Below the pieces are notes generated by a model. The model had not been told where the DNA came from. It worked only from the letters and a program-made list of their open reading frames with translations, and searched no databases. Shown here piece after piece: positions 9,104 through 39,984 of a DNA stretch of 39,984 nucleotides. Each line of letters starts with the position of its first letter. Position 1 is the first letter of the stretch. Where the stretch lies: the IMG/VR virus record IMGVR_UViG_3300046000_009554, positions 1 through 39,984 of that record; one strand, written 5' to 3'. Made by a program: the position numbers and the translations under genes. The stretch is from a virus.

Positions 9104-9238
9104 GTGCTCGCGCGTTCATGTGCGAGGTGTACGACATGCGCGCATGTCCAGTGCTTCAAAGGCCGTGGTCCGTCCACTGTGAACGGCGCATTTCGGCCAA
9201 TGTTAGAAAACCGTTCGGGGAATCCTCTTCGAGCGATT

Positions 9239-9258
9239 GACGGAAAATCGATTCTGGA
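9239..9258 (+). repeat. 20-bp direct repeat, copy 1
   Basis: GACGGAAAATCGATTCTGGA occurs here, just upstream of the ribosome-binding sequence of the 9273 gene, and again exactly at 9733-9752. A 14-bp core (ACGGAAAATCGATT) recurs at 10302-10315. The core contains the palindrome AATCGATT. Candidate binding site for the protein encoded between copies 1 and 2, or a replication iteron. Confidence 0.85.
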
Positions 9259-9272
9259 AACGAGAGGCACCG

Positions 9273-9860
9273 ATGCCAAGAAAACACGCAAACGCACTCG
9301 CCATCATCATTCCCGAATGCACCGACTGGATGCAGCACTCTCCAGGGCTTCGGGACACTCTCAACAAGCCTGATGGGGGTGAGGCATGGGCCACAGTGTT
9401 TCGTGCCCTCCTGGCCTACGCCCAGCGCGGGGAAAGGCCCTTCGAGGATTGGTTGCCTGACCTAGCCGCGCATCTTCTGGAAGTAGAGCGCTTGCCCTAC
9501 GGCTCCGGCTTCGACGCGCCACTTCCCGTCACCTACGACGATGACATCTACTCGCGCGTCATCGCAGCAGTGCGCGCACGGAACGCCATCGAGCGCGGTC
9601 ACGGCGTGCCCCGCTACTGGCTCGCTCACCTCGCCGGATGCGCTCGGCGCACCATCGAGAACGCGTGCTTCAGAGGCGCACTCATCGCGGTCAATGCTGG
9701 AAACTTCGACGGCAGAGAATCGCCCTCGCATCGACGGAAAATCGATTCTGGAGCTGACGCCCGCGTGCGCCTGATTTGCCCAGAAAGCGCGCGCGCTTGG
9801 CTGGCATCGAGGGGTGTGGTTGTGGCCAGGTTGGAGCCAACCGCACCGTGTCTGTTTTGA
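9273..9860 (+). CDS. Putative DNA-binding protein beside direct repeats (195 aa)
   Basis: ATG at 9273 is preceded by GAGAGG-CACCG; a longer TTG start at 9237 would place the first repeat inside the gene and lacks a good ribosome-binding site. Residues 1-110 are mainly helical. Residues about 114-140 (RYWLAHLAGCARRTIENACF) look like a helix-turn-helix. The C-terminal segment SHRRKIDSGADARVRL is encoded partly by repeat copy 2, and the Arg-rich end reads through a hairpin. Copies of the 20-bp repeat at its start and inside its end, with a core copy downstream, fit an autoregulator or a replication initiator. No Rep family is recognised. Confidence 0.7.
   Translation: MPRKHANALAIIIPECTDWMQHSPGLRDTLNKPDGGEAWATVFRALLAYAQRGERPFEDWLPDLAAHLLEVERLPYGSGFDAPLPVTYDDDIYSRVIAAVRARNAIERGHGVPRYWLAHLAGCARRTIENACFRGALIAVNAGNFDGRESPSHRRKIDSGADARVRLICPESARAWLASRGVVVARLEPTAPCLF
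9733..9752 (+). repeat. 20-bp direct repeat, copy 2
   Basis: Exact copy of 9239-9258, 494 bp downstream, inside the 3' part of the 9273-9860 gene, where it encodes RRKIDSG. Copy 1 lies upstream of the gene in non-coding DNA, so conservation of all 20 bases is not explained by protein sequence alone. Confidence 0.85.
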
Positions 9861-9864
9861 CACG
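9847..9864. repeat. Hairpin at the end of the 9273-9860 gene
   Basis: CGTGTC and GACACG form a 6-bp stem around TGTTTT and enclose the stop codon. No T-run follows on the plus strand, so it is not a typical intrinsic terminator. Its 5' arm resembles the ACCGTGT element in the structured region at 10092-10113. Confidence 0.45.
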
Positions 9865-10030
9865 CTCTGTGCGTTTACGCGCTCGTGTCGTACATGCGCC
9901 TACCCCTCGCACATCCACCCACTGCGCACCCGAGCAGCACTGCCCATCCGCACCCTGCTCGCGCGCTCACCGCTGCGCAGAGGAGCAGCTTCCCCGCCGC
10001 CCTCCCGGTGCATCGGAAGCGGGAGAAGGG

Positions 10031-10150
10031 AGCGGAAGAGCACCCCCCTACCCCCCATCGCACTCTGGCACGCTATTTGCGGGACGCAGAGACCGTGTCA
10101 AAAAGTACACGGTGGATGGGAGGTCTCTATGGGGGTGCTCGCTGCTTCCT
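10031..10150 (+). ncRNA. Candidate structured RNA or origin hairpin
   Basis: GAGCACCCCC (10038-10047) is perfectly complementary to GGGGGTGCTC (10131-10140). Directly inside the 3' arm, separated by 2 nt, AGAGACC (10088-10094) pairs with GGTCTCT (10122-10128). Within that, ACCGTGT (10092-10098) can pair with ACACGGT (10107-10113) around CAAAAAGT, partly competing with the previous stem. GGAAG at 10034 and CTTCC at 10145 can extend the outer helix with a bulge. The three stems in one non-coding stretch support a folded element, but whether it acts as RNA or DNA is unknown. Confidence 0.45.
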
Positions 10151-10277
10151 CCACCGCTGCCTATCGGCATGCGTCTTCGGTCGCGTTGTCGCACCTGGCG
10201 TGAGCCAGCCTTCGGAAGATGGCCCAAGAGCGCACTGCGTTCAAGTGCAGATTTTGCGCGAAAGCTAGAAACTCGAA

Positions 10278-10293
10278 GTGCGCATATGCGCAA
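10278..10293. promoter_or_regulatory. Operator-like palindrome GTGCGC-N4-GCGCAA
   Basis: GTGCGCATATGCGCAA differs at one position from the TTGCGC-N4-GCGCAA form found twice beside the XRE repressor. It lies upstream of the promoter and of the core repeat at 10302, so repressor control of the helicase operon is plausible. Confidence 0.5.
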
Positions 10294-10301
10294 AGTATCC
10301 A

Positions 10302-10315
10302 ACGGAAAATCGATT
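10302..10315 (+). repeat. Third (core, 14-bp) copy of the direct repeat
   Basis: ACGGAAAATCGATT matches bases 2-15 of the 20-bp repeats at 9239 and 9733. It overlaps by two bases the TTGCGC of the downstream promoter, so a protein bound here could also control the 10360 operon. Confidence 0.75.
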
Positions 10316-10341
10316 GCGCTTTTGTGCGCATGTGCTAGTCA
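10314..10341 (+). promoter_or_regulatory. Rightward promoter TTGCGC-N16-TAGTCA
   Basis: TTGCGC at 10314-10319 and TAGTCA at 10336-10341 are separated by 16 nt, the same geometry as three other start regions. The -10 match is poor (TA plus weak remainder). It precedes the AAGGAG ribosome-binding sequence and the gene at 10360. Confidence 0.38.
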
Positions 10342-10359
10342 AACACCCAAGGAGATATG

Positions 10360-10671
10360 ATGCTGAAACTGACGCCGATTCTTGAACACATGGGCGCTTG
10401 CAATGAGTCTCTGACGTGGCTTCGCGAGAAGAACTTCGCAACGTTCGAGCAGGCTTTCAGCGCTTGCCCAGACGGATGTTGGATTGACTGGCTTGTAGAG
10501 GGCCTGATCTGCGAGAACAACCAGGCTTCGGCTTTGTGTAGCAGGGCGTGCGGGTCAAGCGATGAGCTTCTGAAGTTCTACGCGTCCCACTGCGAAGACA
10601 TCGAGCGATGGCTTGTCGAGTACGCGCACAAGCATGGATGCGCTGTGGAGGTGCGTCGTGACGCTGCTTGA
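10360..10671 (+). CDS. Hypothetical protein (103 aa)
   Basis: The start is the second of two tandem ATGs (10357 and 10360), giving AAGGAG a 5-nt spacing. The 103-residue product is acidic, with Trp and Cys residues (MLKLTPILEHMGACNESLTW; ACPDGCWIDWLV) and mostly helical. Cysteines are scattered and do not form a clear zinc knuckle. No family is recognised. Its end overlaps the next gene's start by 14 nt, consistent with coupling to the coiled-coil/KOW-like and helicase genes. Confidence 0.7.
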   Translation: MLKLTPILEHMGACNESLTWLREKNFATFEQAFSACPDGCWIDWLVEGLICENNQASALCSRACGSSDELLKFYASHCEDIERWLVEYAHKHGCAVEVRRDAA

Positions 10672-14842: not shown

Positions 14843-14882
14843 AAAGCCCGCTTAGAGTTCATCTAAGCGGGCTTTGCTTTTT
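14843..14882. terminator. Strong bidirectional intrinsic terminator
   Basis: AAAGCCCGCTTAGA (14843-14856) and TCTAAGCGGGCTTT (14862-14875) form a perfect 14-bp stem around GTTCA. Read rightward it is followed by GCTTTTT. Read leftward the stem is followed by a short TTTGTCG run. It separates the convergent rightward (ending 14802) and leftward (ending 14896) operons. Confidence 0.92.
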
Positions 14883-14895
14883 GACGTCGCTCAAC

Positions 14896-15177
14896 TCATC
14901 GAGGCGGTAGCCGCTCCATCGAACCGCTGCGCACAATCTTGACGCCGCGAACAACGCGCTCGACGGGGACCATGCCAAGCGCTTGCATGCGGTCGCGGCC
15001 CTCGATGCAGCCAAAGCACAGCGCGAGCTTGCCGACGTGGCGCTTCTTCGAGGTGACGTGGTGCGACGCGTAGCTCTCTGCGTGGCGCTCGGCGCATGCC
15101 TGATACGTGATGCGGCACGAGTACGGCTCGCACTTGACGACGTTCGAGAGCGACTTGAGGCGCTCGATGTCGGTCAT
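14896..15177 (-). CDS. Small Cys-containing phage protein (93 aa)
   Basis: The 93-residue protein contains CEPYSC (about residues 16-21), C28 and CFGC (about 54-57), a pattern suited to zinc binding, plus His-rich sequence (SHHVTSKKRH). It resembles small zinc-containing phage accessory proteins, but no named family is recognised. It is the last gene of the repressor operon, overlapping the gene before it as ATGA. Confidence 0.65.
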   Translation of the reverse strand: MTDIERLKSLSNVVKCEPYSCRITYQACAERHAESYASHHVTSKKRHVGKLALCFGCIEGRDRMQALGMVPVERVVRGVKIVRSGSMERLPPR

Positions 15178-15773
15178 GCGGCCCTCACGCTTCGCGCCAT
15201 CGCGATAAGAACCTCTCGAAACTCAGACGGTGTTTCCGACGCTCTACGCTTTCCAACTTTTGGGCGATGCTCCCCGCCTAACCTTGTTTTGTTGCCGCAC
15301 CACGAGACCGCTGATTTTGTCTCCGCATCGTTGACGCTGCCCCACTTCAGCGACGGGAGCTCGCACCCGAACGCATAGAGCCACGTTGCTTTCTTGGCAA
15401 CGTGCCCGTAACGCCCCTGCTCCACATGGCAGGCCCAGCCTCCGCATACACCACGTTGCCATCCACCATGTCTCGAAGGGGTTGGCAGCCCAAATACTTT
15501 AAAAGCGTCGCTGTACGCCGGATGTTCAAGCACGCCACCGACACGGCGGACGTTGGCAAGCGCTGACGCAAAACATCCACCATCGTCACCGCGCCTATAG
15601 CCCCACCGCGCTTCGCAGAGCGCAGCCAAACGGCACCATCGTGAACATGGCGGGTGCGCGACGACCGGGTGCATGCCGTCGTAGTTTCGCGCGTCACGCT
15701 TGATGTCCCACACGTCAACACCAGGGACGCGAGAGTACGGCCCATCCGCATAGACAAACAAAGCGGCAATCAC
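15174..15773 (-). CDS. PPC-motif protein resembling a degenerate cytosine methyltransferase
   Basis: GTG at 15773 overlaps the upstream stop as GTGA, giving 199 residues. The central part has VAHPPCSRW (about residues 38-46) and later VLEHPAYS (81-88). The order of PPC and then E-H-P is reminiscent of motif IV (PPC) and motif VI (EN-type) of C5-cytosine methyltransferases. The S-adenosylmethionine loop was not found, the protein is short, and the E-N pair is E-H. Proteins with this pattern are widespread in phages. A modifying enzyme is possible, but activity is uncertain. Confidence 0.55.
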   Translation of the reverse strand: MIAALFVYADGPYSRVPGVDVWDIKRDARNYDGMHPVVAHPPCSRWCRLAALCEARWGYRRGDDGGCFASALANVRRVGGVLEHPAYSDAFKVFGLPTPSRHGGWQRGVCGGWACHVEQGRYGHVAKKATWLYAFGCELPSLKWGSVNDAETKSAVSWCGNKTRLGGEHRPKVGKRRASETPSEFREVLIAMARSVRAA

Positions 15774-16084
15774 TGGCACCCCAACTGGTACCGCGCAAAC
15801 CACCTGTCGAGGATGCGCGCGCAAGCGCTGTACGAGCTGAAGAGCGGCTTCGTCGTGGCGTCTTTGACGGTCCACCCGTTCTTGATGCGCCAATGTGCGG
15901 TGCGCGAACTGATGCCGTTCGCGCGCGCAAGCGCTGCGATGTTGACCATGGGCGCCAACTCCGCGCCTGCATCCATGAGCCTGCGCACGCGCGGACGCGA
16001 GCACTTGAGCGCTTTTGCGGCGGCGTCAATGGACTCGCAGCGTGTACCGTCTGCGAGCATCACGGGGATGGGCGCTGGTCTCAT
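15770..16084 (-). CDS. Helix-turn-helix protein (104 aa)
   Basis: The 104-residue protein starts MRPAPIPVMLADGTRCESID, a pattern like NUMOD1-type modules seen next to homing endonuclease domains. It continues AAAKALKCSRPRVRRLMDAG (helix-turn-helix at about residues 20-40) and NIAALARANGISSRTAHWRI, a second HTH-like segment at about 48-67. No nuclease motif is present. It is probably a small DNA-binding protein in the repressor operon. It has 4-nt overlaps with both neighbours. Confidence 0.65.
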   Translation of the reverse strand: MRPAPIPVMLADGTRCESIDAAAKALKCSRPRVRRLMDAGAELAPMVNIAALARANGISSRTAHWRIKNGWTVKDATTKPLFSSYSACARILDRWFARYQLGCQ

Positions 16085-34040: not shown

Positions 34041-37000
34041 TCACCTTTTTGCTGAGGCGCTGAGCGCACGACGCACAGTGCCAGACTTTACGCCAATTTC
34101 TAGGTCGACTGAGATAATCTCGTGGCCCCGTCCTGGGGTCGCGGCAGGGTTCTCCCCGATGACCTCGCCAAGCGTCAGGTACTCCTCGATTTTGAACTGG
34201 ATTGCGGCGCACTTCTGGATGTTTGGACGAAGCGACAAGAGCACGCGCCCGTCGCTGTTTCGCATCGCAATGAGGTCCGCCTCGTACCATCGATGCTCTT
34301 CAGTGGGAATCGTGGCGTAGTCGTAGAACACGGTCACGCGGATGTGCCCGGTGAAGTGATACGCAAGGAGCGTTGCGCGCCATGCACGCTGAAACCCAGC
34401 GATGCCGCCTACCTTGAACCACGCCGTCTTGAGCGACTGGAGGTGCGTTGCGTTGGTCCAGTCAGCGCGCGCCTCTTCGCTGACGACGGTGTCTGCTGCG
34501 CCCACAACGCTGTCGCCGATGACTGCGTGATGCGTGGTGTCAGCGCACTGACGCGTCGACCATTGGTCTCGAAGGAAGTCCCACACGACCATGAGCCCCG
34601 TAGCCGCCCATGAGCCCAGCCACGCGCTCGTCGCACCAAGCCATCGGACTTCAGACTGGTCAGGCACGAGGACGCCGCAGAATCGCCCCGTGGTGGCCGT
34701 CTGCACCTTGTCTCCGATGAATCGCAGCGCGAGACTGCGGTCGAGCGTGTAGAAGCCGCGCTGCGACTGGAACGCGACGCCGAACGGACCCTCGACGATG
34801 GACTGCGCGCTGACGCACCCGACGTCACCAGAGAGCATTTGCGGCGACTGGAGCGTAGAGCCTTCGCCAAGTGCATCGCCGGGCGAGCCAGAGACGATGA
34901 AGATGCGGCGTTGCTTGAAGACGATGATTTTGTCGTCGATGGCAGCGATGCCCACACAGTCGCCGCCTTCGCTTGGAACTATGAACTCCAACTCGGTCGC
35001 GAACTCAGGCGCAACGGTTGGCTGGATTGGCTTCGAGGGGAGCACCGTGTTGCGCTTCTCAGCGCTGAGCGCCCAAAGCCTGTTTTGCGTGCTTGTGATG
35101 TCGAGCACAGCGGGCGGCGCCGACGTCTCCAGTTCCGTTGCGAACCATGGCAGAGGCCCAGCGCTGAGCGTGGTGACGTACACCGAAAATGGCGCCACGT
35201 TGTATTCCGGGTTCGCGTCGACGCCTTGCCCTCGCGTGAAGTACACAAGCACACAGTCGAGCCATGCGGTGGAGCGCTTGGGCTTGAGCCGAGCGGTCAG
35301 CGCTTCAGCTTCTGGGTTGTCGAACGCCGCCTGGAACACGTCGAGGTAGAGGTCGACGCCGCGCTCCTGGTAGAGGACCATCTCGGCGAGCGGAGGAAGC
35401 GGCACTGCGACGAGGCGGCTGTAGGGAGACGGCGCCGTGCCCACGAACGCGTGGGACGAGCACCCGCCGTTGCCAAGCGGGTTCGCATCGCTGACGTACG
35501 GCGTGGGCGCCCCTCGGTGCTCGTTGCCGTATTGGTCGACCCATACCCACGCGAAGCGGATGAACACCTCTGACGAGGTCGCAAGCGTGTTCAAACCAGC
35601 GCCAGTTGTGATGATACCCGTGATGATCGGCGCGTCGCCACGTGAAAGCGTGAGCATCGCAGACAGGTTGGAACCTGCCATCGACACGCCAGCGCCATCA
35701 CCGAAGAGCCGCGTTGAGTTTGCGCTCACCGTTCGCGTTGGCGGGGGGTTCGCGACTTGCGAGCGCACGAGGTCAACACGCACGTCCCCGTCTGCTAGTT
35801 CGGCTGGACCAGTCGCCACATGGTAGCCGAAAAACAGCGCGCCGCTGCTGTCAACGCACGTGTGCGACTGGCCTATTTTGTACGAACCGACGTTGATGTC
35901 TTCGTAGACAGCCGACGAGAACGCGCACGCCACGCGCACGATTGCCGCCGTGCCGCCCGCGTTGTCGCCCATGCGCACGATGCGCCCAGTTCGTGGCTCA
36001 GTGCCAGCGCGGAGCACGTAGACGCTCTCGCCCCAGCTGCTGATGTAGCGTGGCTCTCCGAAGATGAATGTGTTGGCGAGGTGGAACTTGTAGGCGAAGG
36101 TGCCGTTCGTCTCGAAGACGTGCACTTCGGTGCCCCACACCTGCGTCGTGGTCCCAAAGGGTGCGCCAGGGCCATCGGCACTGATGAGCACAGCGGTGCG
36201 CGTGGAGTCCCAGCGAGCAAGCGCGACGCGCGTAGGCGCAGTGACGGCCCACCCAGCGGTCGACCACGAGCCAAACGAGCCTGAAAGGTTGGCAGCGCAA
36301 AGGCGCACATTGGGTATCAAGTTCGCGCAGATGACGCGACTTGCTGAAGCGTCGTAGAAGACAGTCGTCAACGCATAGGAGGCGTCAACAAGCGAGGCGT
36401 TGCCACTGTCGCTCTTGAGGTGGAGGATGCTTGTGGAGGCTCCGGTTGGGAACACGACGTAGACGTCGCCGCCGTTGACCGTGCACCCGAACTTGGCGCC
36501 ACTGGAGTACGTGCCCGTGAAGTCCGCTGCGCTGCCGAATGTGTAGGTGCCAGACGATAGCGTGTAGTCCGCGAAGCCGATGCGATTCGACTGCGTCTGC
36601 CCGACGATGGTGAAGCGTCGCGTCGAGGAGCCTGTTTCCACGCCCAGCACGTACGCACGCCCTTGGACGAACCCGGTGACAAGCGTAGGGCCCGAGATGA
36701 TGCGCAGAGCGCCGTCCGCAACATCGAAGAACGTCGCGTAAGTGCCAATCGACGTGAGCGCGCCGGTGCCATCGCGTGCGGCCTTCGCGTACACGACACA
36801 CATCACGTCAGCGACGATTGCGATGTCGACGTTGAACACGTCGTCGCCACCACGCACGAGCGGGTCAACGAGCGTCGCCGAGGGGATTGGCGCGTTCTCG
36901 TTCGTCTCGCGCCACAGTGCAGAAACGGTGTCGAAGGTGAAGGTGCCCTTCGTCGTCTTCGCGACGGTAGTGCCGTCTGCCTCGGCCACGGAGATGATTT

Positions 37001-37184
37001 GTCCCGTCGAACCCGGCAAGCCCGTCGAAGGCTTCAGGTCCATCGAGTAGCTCTTGCCAGCGATGCCCGTGCGCGGGAACCGGATGTTGGATGCAAGCTC
37101 GTTGCCTTCGACGAGGGCGCGCGCCTTGTCGTCCGCTTGGCCAGAGCCGATAGGAACCGAGACAACCTGTCGTTGCAGCGTCAT
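34041..37184 (-). CDS. Tail nozzle-like protein (tail tubular B role, 1047 aa)
   Basis: ATG 37184 overlaps the previous stop (ATGA); an upstream extension in frame is a shadow. The 1047-residue protein is beta-rich, with repeated VYVLR, YVVF and AWLGSW-type strands that may form a propeller. The C-terminal region contains IVFKQRRIFIVSGSPGDALG and VAFQSQRGFYTLDRSLALRF, segments seen in podovirus nozzle proteins. In such phages this protein forms the hexameric nozzle below the adaptor ring and sits after the tail-tubular A gene, as here. Length and synteny support this, not a named motif. Confidence 0.78.
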   Translation of the reverse strand: MTLQRQVVSVPIGSGQADDKARALVEGNELASNIRFPRTGIAGKSYSMDLKPSTGLPGSTGQIISVAEADGTTVAKTTKGTFTFDTVSALWRETNENAPIPSATLVDPLVRGGDDVFNVDIAIVADVMCVVYAKAARDGTGALTSIGTYATFFDVADGALRIISGPTLVTGFVQGRAYVLGVETGSSTRRFTIVGQTQSNRIGFADYTLSSGTYTFGSAADFTGTYSSGAKFGCTVNGGDVYVVFPTGASTSILHLKSDSGNASLVDASYALTTVFYDASASRVICANLIPNVRLCAANLSGSFGSWSTAGWAVTAPTRVALARWDSTRTAVLISADGPGAPFGTTTQVWGTEVHVFETNGTFAYKFHLANTFIFGEPRYISSWGESVYVLRAGTEPRTGRIVRMGDNAGGTAAIVRVACAFSSAVYEDINVGSYKIGQSHTCVDSSGALFFGYHVATGPAELADGDVRVDLVRSQVANPPPTRTVSANSTRLFGDGAGVSMAGSNLSAMLTLSRGDAPIITGIITTGAGLNTLATSSEVFIRFAWVWVDQYGNEHRGAPTPYVSDANPLGNGGCSSHAFVGTAPSPYSRLVAVPLPPLAEMVLYQERGVDLYLDVFQAAFDNPEAEALTARLKPKRSTAWLDCVLVYFTRGQGVDANPEYNVAPFSVYVTTLSAGPLPWFATELETSAPPAVLDITSTQNRLWALSAEKRNTVLPSKPIQPTVAPEFATELEFIVPSEGGDCVGIAAIDDKIIVFKQRRIFIVSGSPGDALGEGSTLQSPQMLSGDVGCVSAQSIVEGPFGVAFQSQRGFYTLDRSLALRFIGDKVQTATTGRFCGVLVPDQSEVRWLGATSAWLGSWAATGLMVVWDFLRDQWSTRQCADTTHHAVIGDSVVGAADTVVSEEARADWTNATHLQSLKTAWFKVGGIAGFQRAWRATLLAYHFTGHIRVTVFYDYATIPTEEHRWYEADLIAMRNSDGRVLLSLRPNIQKCAAIQFKIEEYLTLGEVIGENPAATPGRGHEIISVDLEIGVKSGTVRRALSASAKR

Positions 37185-37423
37185 GGGATTGGCGTTCCGA
37201 GTAGGCCTGCAACCGCTGCTGCGAGGCGCGTGATAGCTTCGTCCTTCGTCGTAGGCGCAGGCGTAGCCCAATCCGACGCTGTGGCCGCGTAGACGCCGCT
37301 GGACGTCCCCAGCGCATTCACGTCTTGACGCATCTGGTCGAAGCCTCGTTGCGCGGCGTCAAGCGTCTTGTCGTGGTCAGGAAGGCCCGTGCGCGTAAGT
37401 GAAACGCGGCGCGCGAACGTCAT
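37181..37423 (-). CDS. Small virion-operon protein (80 aa)
   Basis: ATG 37423 overlaps the adaptor stop (ATGA). The 80-residue product has a charged, partly helical start (DKTLDAAQRGFDQMRQDVNA) and a helical end (DEAITRLAAAVAGLLGTPIP) separated by a Ser/Thr/Ala-rich linker. No family is recognised. It may be a tail-assembly or short fibre-joining protein, since it sits between the adaptor and nozzle genes. Confidence 0.6.
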   Translation of the reverse strand: MTFARRVSLTRTGLPDHDKTLDAAQRGFDQMRQDVNALGTSSGVYAATASDWATPAPTTKDEAITRLAAAVAGLLGTPIP

Positions 37424-39721: not shown

Positions 39722-39984
39722 TCATCCGGGCTTGCCGGAGAAAATCGCAACGGCGCGTTCAAGGCGCTCGTCTGCGGTCAGTTCTTTGGGGAGACCGCTG
39801 CTCGCTTGCGATGCGACGGCCTGCGTGATGGTCACCTTGGGGGGCGCCGCGCTGGCCTTTGTCGCTGTTGCCGGTGTTGCCACTGGCGGGGTGAACTCAC
39901 CCAACAACGAGCGGTGTCTTTCGATGAACCGCCTTGCCTCTGCTTTGAGGCCTTCATTCATTGCGGAGGCCACATCCGCAGGGC
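39722..39984 (-). CDS. Scaffolding protein, C-terminal part (continues at 777 across the join)
   Basis: This fragment is open from the window end to the stop at 39722. On the closed circle, the frame starting at 777 continues here without a stop. The C-terminal part contains an alternating Ala/Thr/Pro linker (TPPVATPATATKASAAPPKV), then a helix (PKELTADERLERAVAIFSGK). Scaffold C-termini are usually the part that binds coat protein. It ends 11 nt before the major capsid start. Confidence 0.8.
   Translation of the reverse strand, partial: PADVASAMNEGLKAEARRFIERHRSLLGEFTPPVATPATATKASAAPPKVTITQAVASQASSGLPKELTADERLERAVAIFSGKPG
39859..39984. repeat. Terminal direct repeat, right copy
   Basis: Bases 39859-39984 duplicate bases 3-128 exactly, indicating the contig closes into a circle of 39,856 bp. 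The two bases before each copy differ (AG against CT). Confidence 0.9.

Follow-up and report, generated by a model that had tools for sequence, protein, structure and literature searches.

Positions 9198-10362 of an uncultivated virus genome are tentatively read, with a confidence falling just short of even, as a phage control module, in which a DNA-binding protein, probably P0002 (the 195-aa product of the gene at 9273-9860), would act on dispersed sites and thereby control both its own expression and the early operon downstream. The sites are three copies of a short direct repeat, which most likely serve as binding sites for a phage protein that acts in regulation or starts replication. The window, meaning the whole stretch of DNA that was analysed, is the IMG/VR record IMGVR_UViG_3300046000_009554 with a length of 39,984 nucleotides, and all positions below refer to it. 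If right, this reading locates the control or origin region in a group of uncultivated phages, and it provides a small set of sites together with one candidate protein, all of them accessible to in vitro work in the absence of the host.

Genome organization

The two ends of the window share an exact overlap of 126 bp (3-128 with 39859-39984), as is found with a circular or terminally redundant genome, here of ~39,856 bp (~39.86 kb after removal of the overlap). The genes for the small and large subunits of the terminase and for the portal run leftward from ~7.8 kb down to 0, and those for the major head protein and an internal virion protein run leftward at 27-40 kb. The rightward genes start from 8.1 kb and include 9273-9860, a ResIII-type helicase gene (phrog_16, E 1.4e-87) and the gene for a RecT-like protein, and the gene of a RuvC-like resolvase (16.1-16.9 kb) points leftward. 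As had been noted in the preliminary description, neither a known Rep nor a DNA polymerase was recognised among the proteins scanned (which took in some but not all of the small ORFs), and the same scan yielded no integrase and no recognisable parABS. Where the rightward genes give way to a leftward gene, a strong hairpin at 14843-14885 (AAAGCCCGCTTAGA...TCTAAGCGGGCTTT, followed by GCTTTTT) makes a convincing putative terminator.

Sequence, position and chance expectation of the repeats

The 20-bp sequence GACGGAAAATCGATTCTGGA occurs exactly at 9239-9258 (copy 1) and 9733-9752 (copy 2), and its 14-bp core ACGGAAAATCGATT occurs exactly at 9240, 9734 and 10302, all on the + strand and within a span of 1.08 kb. 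Copies 1 and 2 are identical over 20 bases, and copy 3 (10302-10315) is the 14-bp core alone; the copies are spaced by 494 and 568 bp, respectively, and their common orientation is that of the genes. Copy 1 is located in the leader of the gene 9273-9860, 15-34 bp 5' of the ATG at 9273 and shortly ahead of GAGAGG (9263-9268, + strand), the putative ribosome-binding site, which reads GAGAGA in the relative designated L004 below. Copy 2 is located within the 3' third of the same gene, and copy 3 lies in the downstream gap, 42-55 bp 5' of the ATG at 10357, between two inverted repeats with TGCGC arms; copies 1 and 3 occupy the leaders of consecutive genes. Both the sequences and the placements given for the three copies in the preliminary description were reproduced exactly. 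The promoter that it had placed next to copy 3 was not recovered, since no sigma-70-like promoter was recognisable on the + strand at copies 1 and 3 or in the non-coding region, and the gap offers a single promoter-like match, of sigma-54 type, 222 bp upstream of copy 3. Its description of the core as palindromic holds for the 8-bp AATCGATT and fails for the conserved 14-20 bp, which are asymmetric and point in the same direction at all copies.

Throughout the whole genome, no further copy of ACGGAAAATCGATT with at most 2 mismatches was found; it is the sole 14-mer that is present three times, and AATCGATT is confined to the three repeat sites (0.22 occurrences expected). Dinucleotide shuffles gave zero occurrences of the 20-mer at a tolerance of 3 mismatches, and a mean of 0.15 matches for the 14-mer core at a tolerance of 2. 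When the genome was simulated by Markov models, a 20-base direct repeat of any sequence appeared in 1 of 200 simulations, and any 14-mer with at least three copies appeared in 4 of 200. TGCGCAA was also considered as an additional operator word and was rejected (20 found versus 16 expected).

Conservation of the module in related viruses

The only near-complete relative found was IMGVR_UViG_3300031787_000312 (L004), accompanied by a fragment (L005) and a third record (3300042311_001139) which ends before the gene 9273-9860. All three copies are kept in L004, at 9968, 10462 and 11030 with the same 494/568 bp spacing, and copy 1 is kept in L005, its 20 bp being identical in both. Absence of the repeats from relatives with the same gene had been named beforehand as a finding that would speak against the preliminary description; the repeats are present in this one relative and this one fragment. 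The search of IMG/VR with the 20-mer returned the same records only, and the DNA of the module gave no match in phages and plasmids.

The block of similarity to L004 extends from 9198 to 10362 at 92% with sharp edges, the left one being just after the upstream gene and the right one coinciding with the ATG of the gene downstream. This downstream gene (10357-10671, + strand, 104 aa, without family), is the first of the downstream operon, and in L004 its place is taken by an unrelated gene. Both genomes are mosaics, and the third-position divergence between them ranges from 0.4% to 33% by gene. The internal virion protein gene at 34041-37271 stands at 0.4%, with many other genes at 15-30%, and its near-identity with the relative appears to be the result of a recent exchange.

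The orphan gene 9273-9860

The gene at 9273-9860 (+ strand) is real and protein-constrained, since 43 of its 52 differences from L004 are held by third codon positions and none by second positions. No homologue of P0002 was found in Pfam, PHROGs, NCBIfam, PDB, phage records (including by tblastn) or GTDB genomes, and the search in IMG/VR gave near relatives only. By eye, residues ~112-181 resemble a winged helix-turn-helix (RYWLAHLAGCARRTIENACFRGAL, a variable wing and VRLICPESARAWLASRG), and part of the putative wing is encoded by copy 2, which makes P0002 a candidate DNA-binding regulator or initiator. No helix-turn-helix model of Pfam matched P0002, and the AlphaFold (AF2) predictions for P0002 in full and for the C-terminal part alone had pLDDT values of 46 and 41, too poor to be read; because there is neither a family match nor a confident structure, DNA binding by P0002 is conjectural. 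The HTH_17 model finds another locus in this genome, not 9273-9860, namely a weak match at 15947-16033 (- strand, E 1.8e-4, below the cut-off), which falls on, or immediately precedes, the start of the leftward gene 15174-16004 (phrog_12600 family).

Copies 1 and 2 carry the repeat in different reading frames relative to the gene, and the repeat is for this reason not a protein-level feature. The copy 2 codons CGA CGG AAA ATC GAT TCT GGA, which encode RRKIDSG, are the most atypical 7-codon stretch of the gene (rank 1 of 189), and six of the seven, all except ATC, are minor codons in the phage. Such codons suggest selection on the DNA and point to a word that may have been retained, or inserted, on account of the DNA sequence itself.

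The non-coding region and its structured element

The region 9861-10345 (485 bp) is conserved with L004, 5.2% of its aligned positions being different versus 22% of the third positions of the gene. One frame of it is open in both genomes; a coding role was rejected, as the region has no codon-position bias and the frame is broken by two 1-bp indels. Because the genomes are mosaic with stretches of near-zero divergence, the high identity of this region could in part be due to recent exchange, and a claim of purifying selection on it was softened in view of the 0.4%-33% range by gene.

Within this region, 103 nt at 10038-10140 are predicted to fold into a three-way junction, with a perfect outer stem of 10 bp (10038-10047 with 10131-10140), an inner stem carrying a bulged A, and two hairpins at the junction. 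The z-scores of the fold are -4.8 for the + strand and -6.0 for the - strand, and the minus strand gives the top fold among 1332 windows sampled genome-wide, above the terminator at 14.85 kb; the absolute fold energy is no outlier because the genome is GC-rich. Five differences from L004 were found in this element, all of them lying in a loop or shifting a bulge, and the fold of L004 is the stronger one on both strands (-58.0 vs -54.0 kcal/mol for the + strand and -62.4 vs -58.3 kcal/mol for the - strand). No compensatory pairs were scored by RNAalifold in this comparison, Rfam and tRNA searches gave no match, and an 18-mer of the element was found in IMG/VR in the same records only. The hairpin at 9844-9874, at the end of the gene (CGTGTC-TGTTTT-GACACG), and the one at 10084-10114 in the structured element are mutually inverted copies, and the former matches the structured element of the relative over 31 bp at 94%.

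The sigma-54-type site TGGCACGCTATTTGC (10066-10080, + strand) is an exact match to the -24/-12 consensus (GG-N10-GC, TGGCACG-N4-TTGC), the only one in the genome, and is conserved in L004; it coincides with a hairpin of the element, and the match may for this reason be a coincidence. Further downstream, a perfect 14-bp palindrome, TGCGCATATGCGCA, lies at 10279-10292, and the inverted repeat TGCGC-TTTTGT-GCGCA at 10315-10330 overlaps the last base of copy 3, which is also conserved in L004. Across the genome, the AT content of 150-bp stretches is highest at 10243-10392 (54% versus a mean of 36%), which contains copy 3; much of this stretch belongs to the non-coding region, and its right end lies within the following gene, beyond the ATG.

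Proposed mechanism and alternatives

According to the favoured reading, the module would comprise the leader, the orphan regulator gene and the 485-bp non-coding control region for the following operon. A sequence-specific binder, most likely P0002 itself, would recognise an asymmetric site of 14-20 bp around AATCGATT. Its binding at copy 1 would limit the expression of P0002, and its binding at copy 3 would control the downstream early operon, including the ResIII-type helicase; copy 2 inside the gene would be an auxiliary or elongation-blocking site, and the structured element together with the sigma-54-like site would be a transcript or promoter feature of the control region. Since the sites occur in two consecutive leaders and once inside the first of the genes, a small regulon with P0002 as the most economical binder is suggested, and a site in the regulator's own leader, the mark of an autoregulated operator, is present as copy 1 before the ATG at 9273. 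The reading is further favoured by the strong protein-level constraint on the gene, the sharp limits of the similarity block, the single exact sigma-54-type site and the outlier fold. DNA binding by P0002, its targeting of the three sites and the direction of regulation are inferred, and what counts against the reading is that there are only three sites and essentially one relative, that no sigma-70 promoter is recognisable on the + strand at copies 1 and 3, and that recent exchange could account for the high identity of the non-coding part. The autoregulated binder put forward in the preliminary description accordingly stands in part: the positions of the sites, their conservation at fixed spacing and the odd codons at copy 2 argue for it, and the lack of a DNA-binding family match and the unreadable structure predictions argue against it. 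If the main reading is right, the orphan family to which P0002 belongs would probably bind its targets in a sequence-specific way.

A replication origin, in which P0002 would be the initiator on the three sites, the AT-rich DNA by copy 3 would be unwound and the fold would serve strand opening, priming or primase loading, is compatible with the regulatory reading and is by itself considered unlikely. Copy 3 lies, as an origin would have it, in the most AT-rich DNA of the genome, which is however expected at promoters too, and the strong fold adjoins this area. The raw cumulative GC-skew minimum falls at 10065, and in the relative just beyond the module; since mean correction moves the minimum to about 17.8 kb in both genomes, the skew was given less weight. 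A helicase gene is located downstream, the proteins scanned include neither a polymerase nor a known Rep, and phage origins in or beside the initiator gene have a precedent in lambda O (PMC5043065; PMC7157519), but no initiator family matches P0002. An iteron-type origin in the defining sense, the other suggestion of the preliminary description, is not supported: a tandem or phased iteron array is excluded, only three single copies ~500 bp apart being present. The looser origin reading keeps some weight owing to the AT-rich 150 bp, the structured element, the raw skew minimum and the published precedents. That all of this amounts to a new phage replication module, with an orphan initiator family, three dispersed sites (one in its own gene), a three-way-junction fold, an AT-rich opening site and no recognisable Rep or DNA polymerase, is thought rather improbable.

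The repeats might also be a by-product, namely a 23-bp segment that was duplicated from the leader into the gene, or in the opposite direction, and then maintained by protein constraint, with copy 3 as a chance partial match. Identical 20-bp copies would follow from a recent duplication as well, the atypical codons of copy 2 would be accounted for by a recent insertion too, and with the low local divergence of non-coding DNA, unchanged copies are not very improbable. This explanation is nevertheless held to be quite doubtful, as an exact third 14-bp copy less than 600 bp away is very unlikely by chance and L004 keeps all copies at identical spacing. Control at the RNA level, with the leader repeat as an mRNA element (a protein or small-RNA target) and 10038-10140 as a structured RNA (such as an element for antitermination or processing, or a small RNA with a regulatory or priming function), would fit the sense orientation of copies 1 and 3 in 5' leaders, the outlier fold with five differences that all preserve or strengthen it, and the precedent of RNA-based phage replication (PMC7157519), but is judged very unlikely in view of the missing Rfam match, the missing compensatory pairs and a minus-strand fold no weaker than that of the plus strand, as with a DNA palindrome.

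Comparison with known systems

The stoperators of mycobacteriophage L5 and cluster A are asymmetric 13-bp sites bound by a monomeric repressor (PMC9283540). The control module proposed here shares with them short asymmetric sites oriented with transcription (three of three on the + strand), promoter or intergenic positions and a phage-encoded regulator, which is a candidate here (PMC9283540). Unlike the stoperators, which number more than 20 genome-wide, the present sites are three within 1.08 kb, one of them inside a gene, and P0002 shows no match to annotated phage repressors (tblastn versus phage records, and PHROGs), which sets it apart from an L5-like repressor. The start-associated sequences of cluster K mycobacteriophages are conserved short repeats near gene starts, some with adjoining inverted repeats (PMC3203893). 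They resemble the present sites in being short repeats near gene starts with inverted repeats alongside (PMC3203893), whereas the present ones stop 15 and 42 nt short of the start codon, are only three and have an unrelated sequence. The present sites belong neither to the stoperators nor to the start-associated sequences.

The lambda ori is an array of 19-bp iterons within the initiator gene O (PMC5043065). A site for a putative DNA-binding protein inside its own gene and AT-rich DNA in the region are common to both, whereas single sites ~500 bp apart are found here and the AT-rich part is ~400 bp downstream of the gene. In parABS mycobacteriophages, prophage origins are RNA-based (PMC7157519); these likewise comprise a non-coding region in a genome without recognisable RepA (PMC7157519), whereas here no parABS was recognised among the proteins scanned. 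A phage regulator with dispersed sites is an already known kind of system, and the structured non-coding element is an added find.
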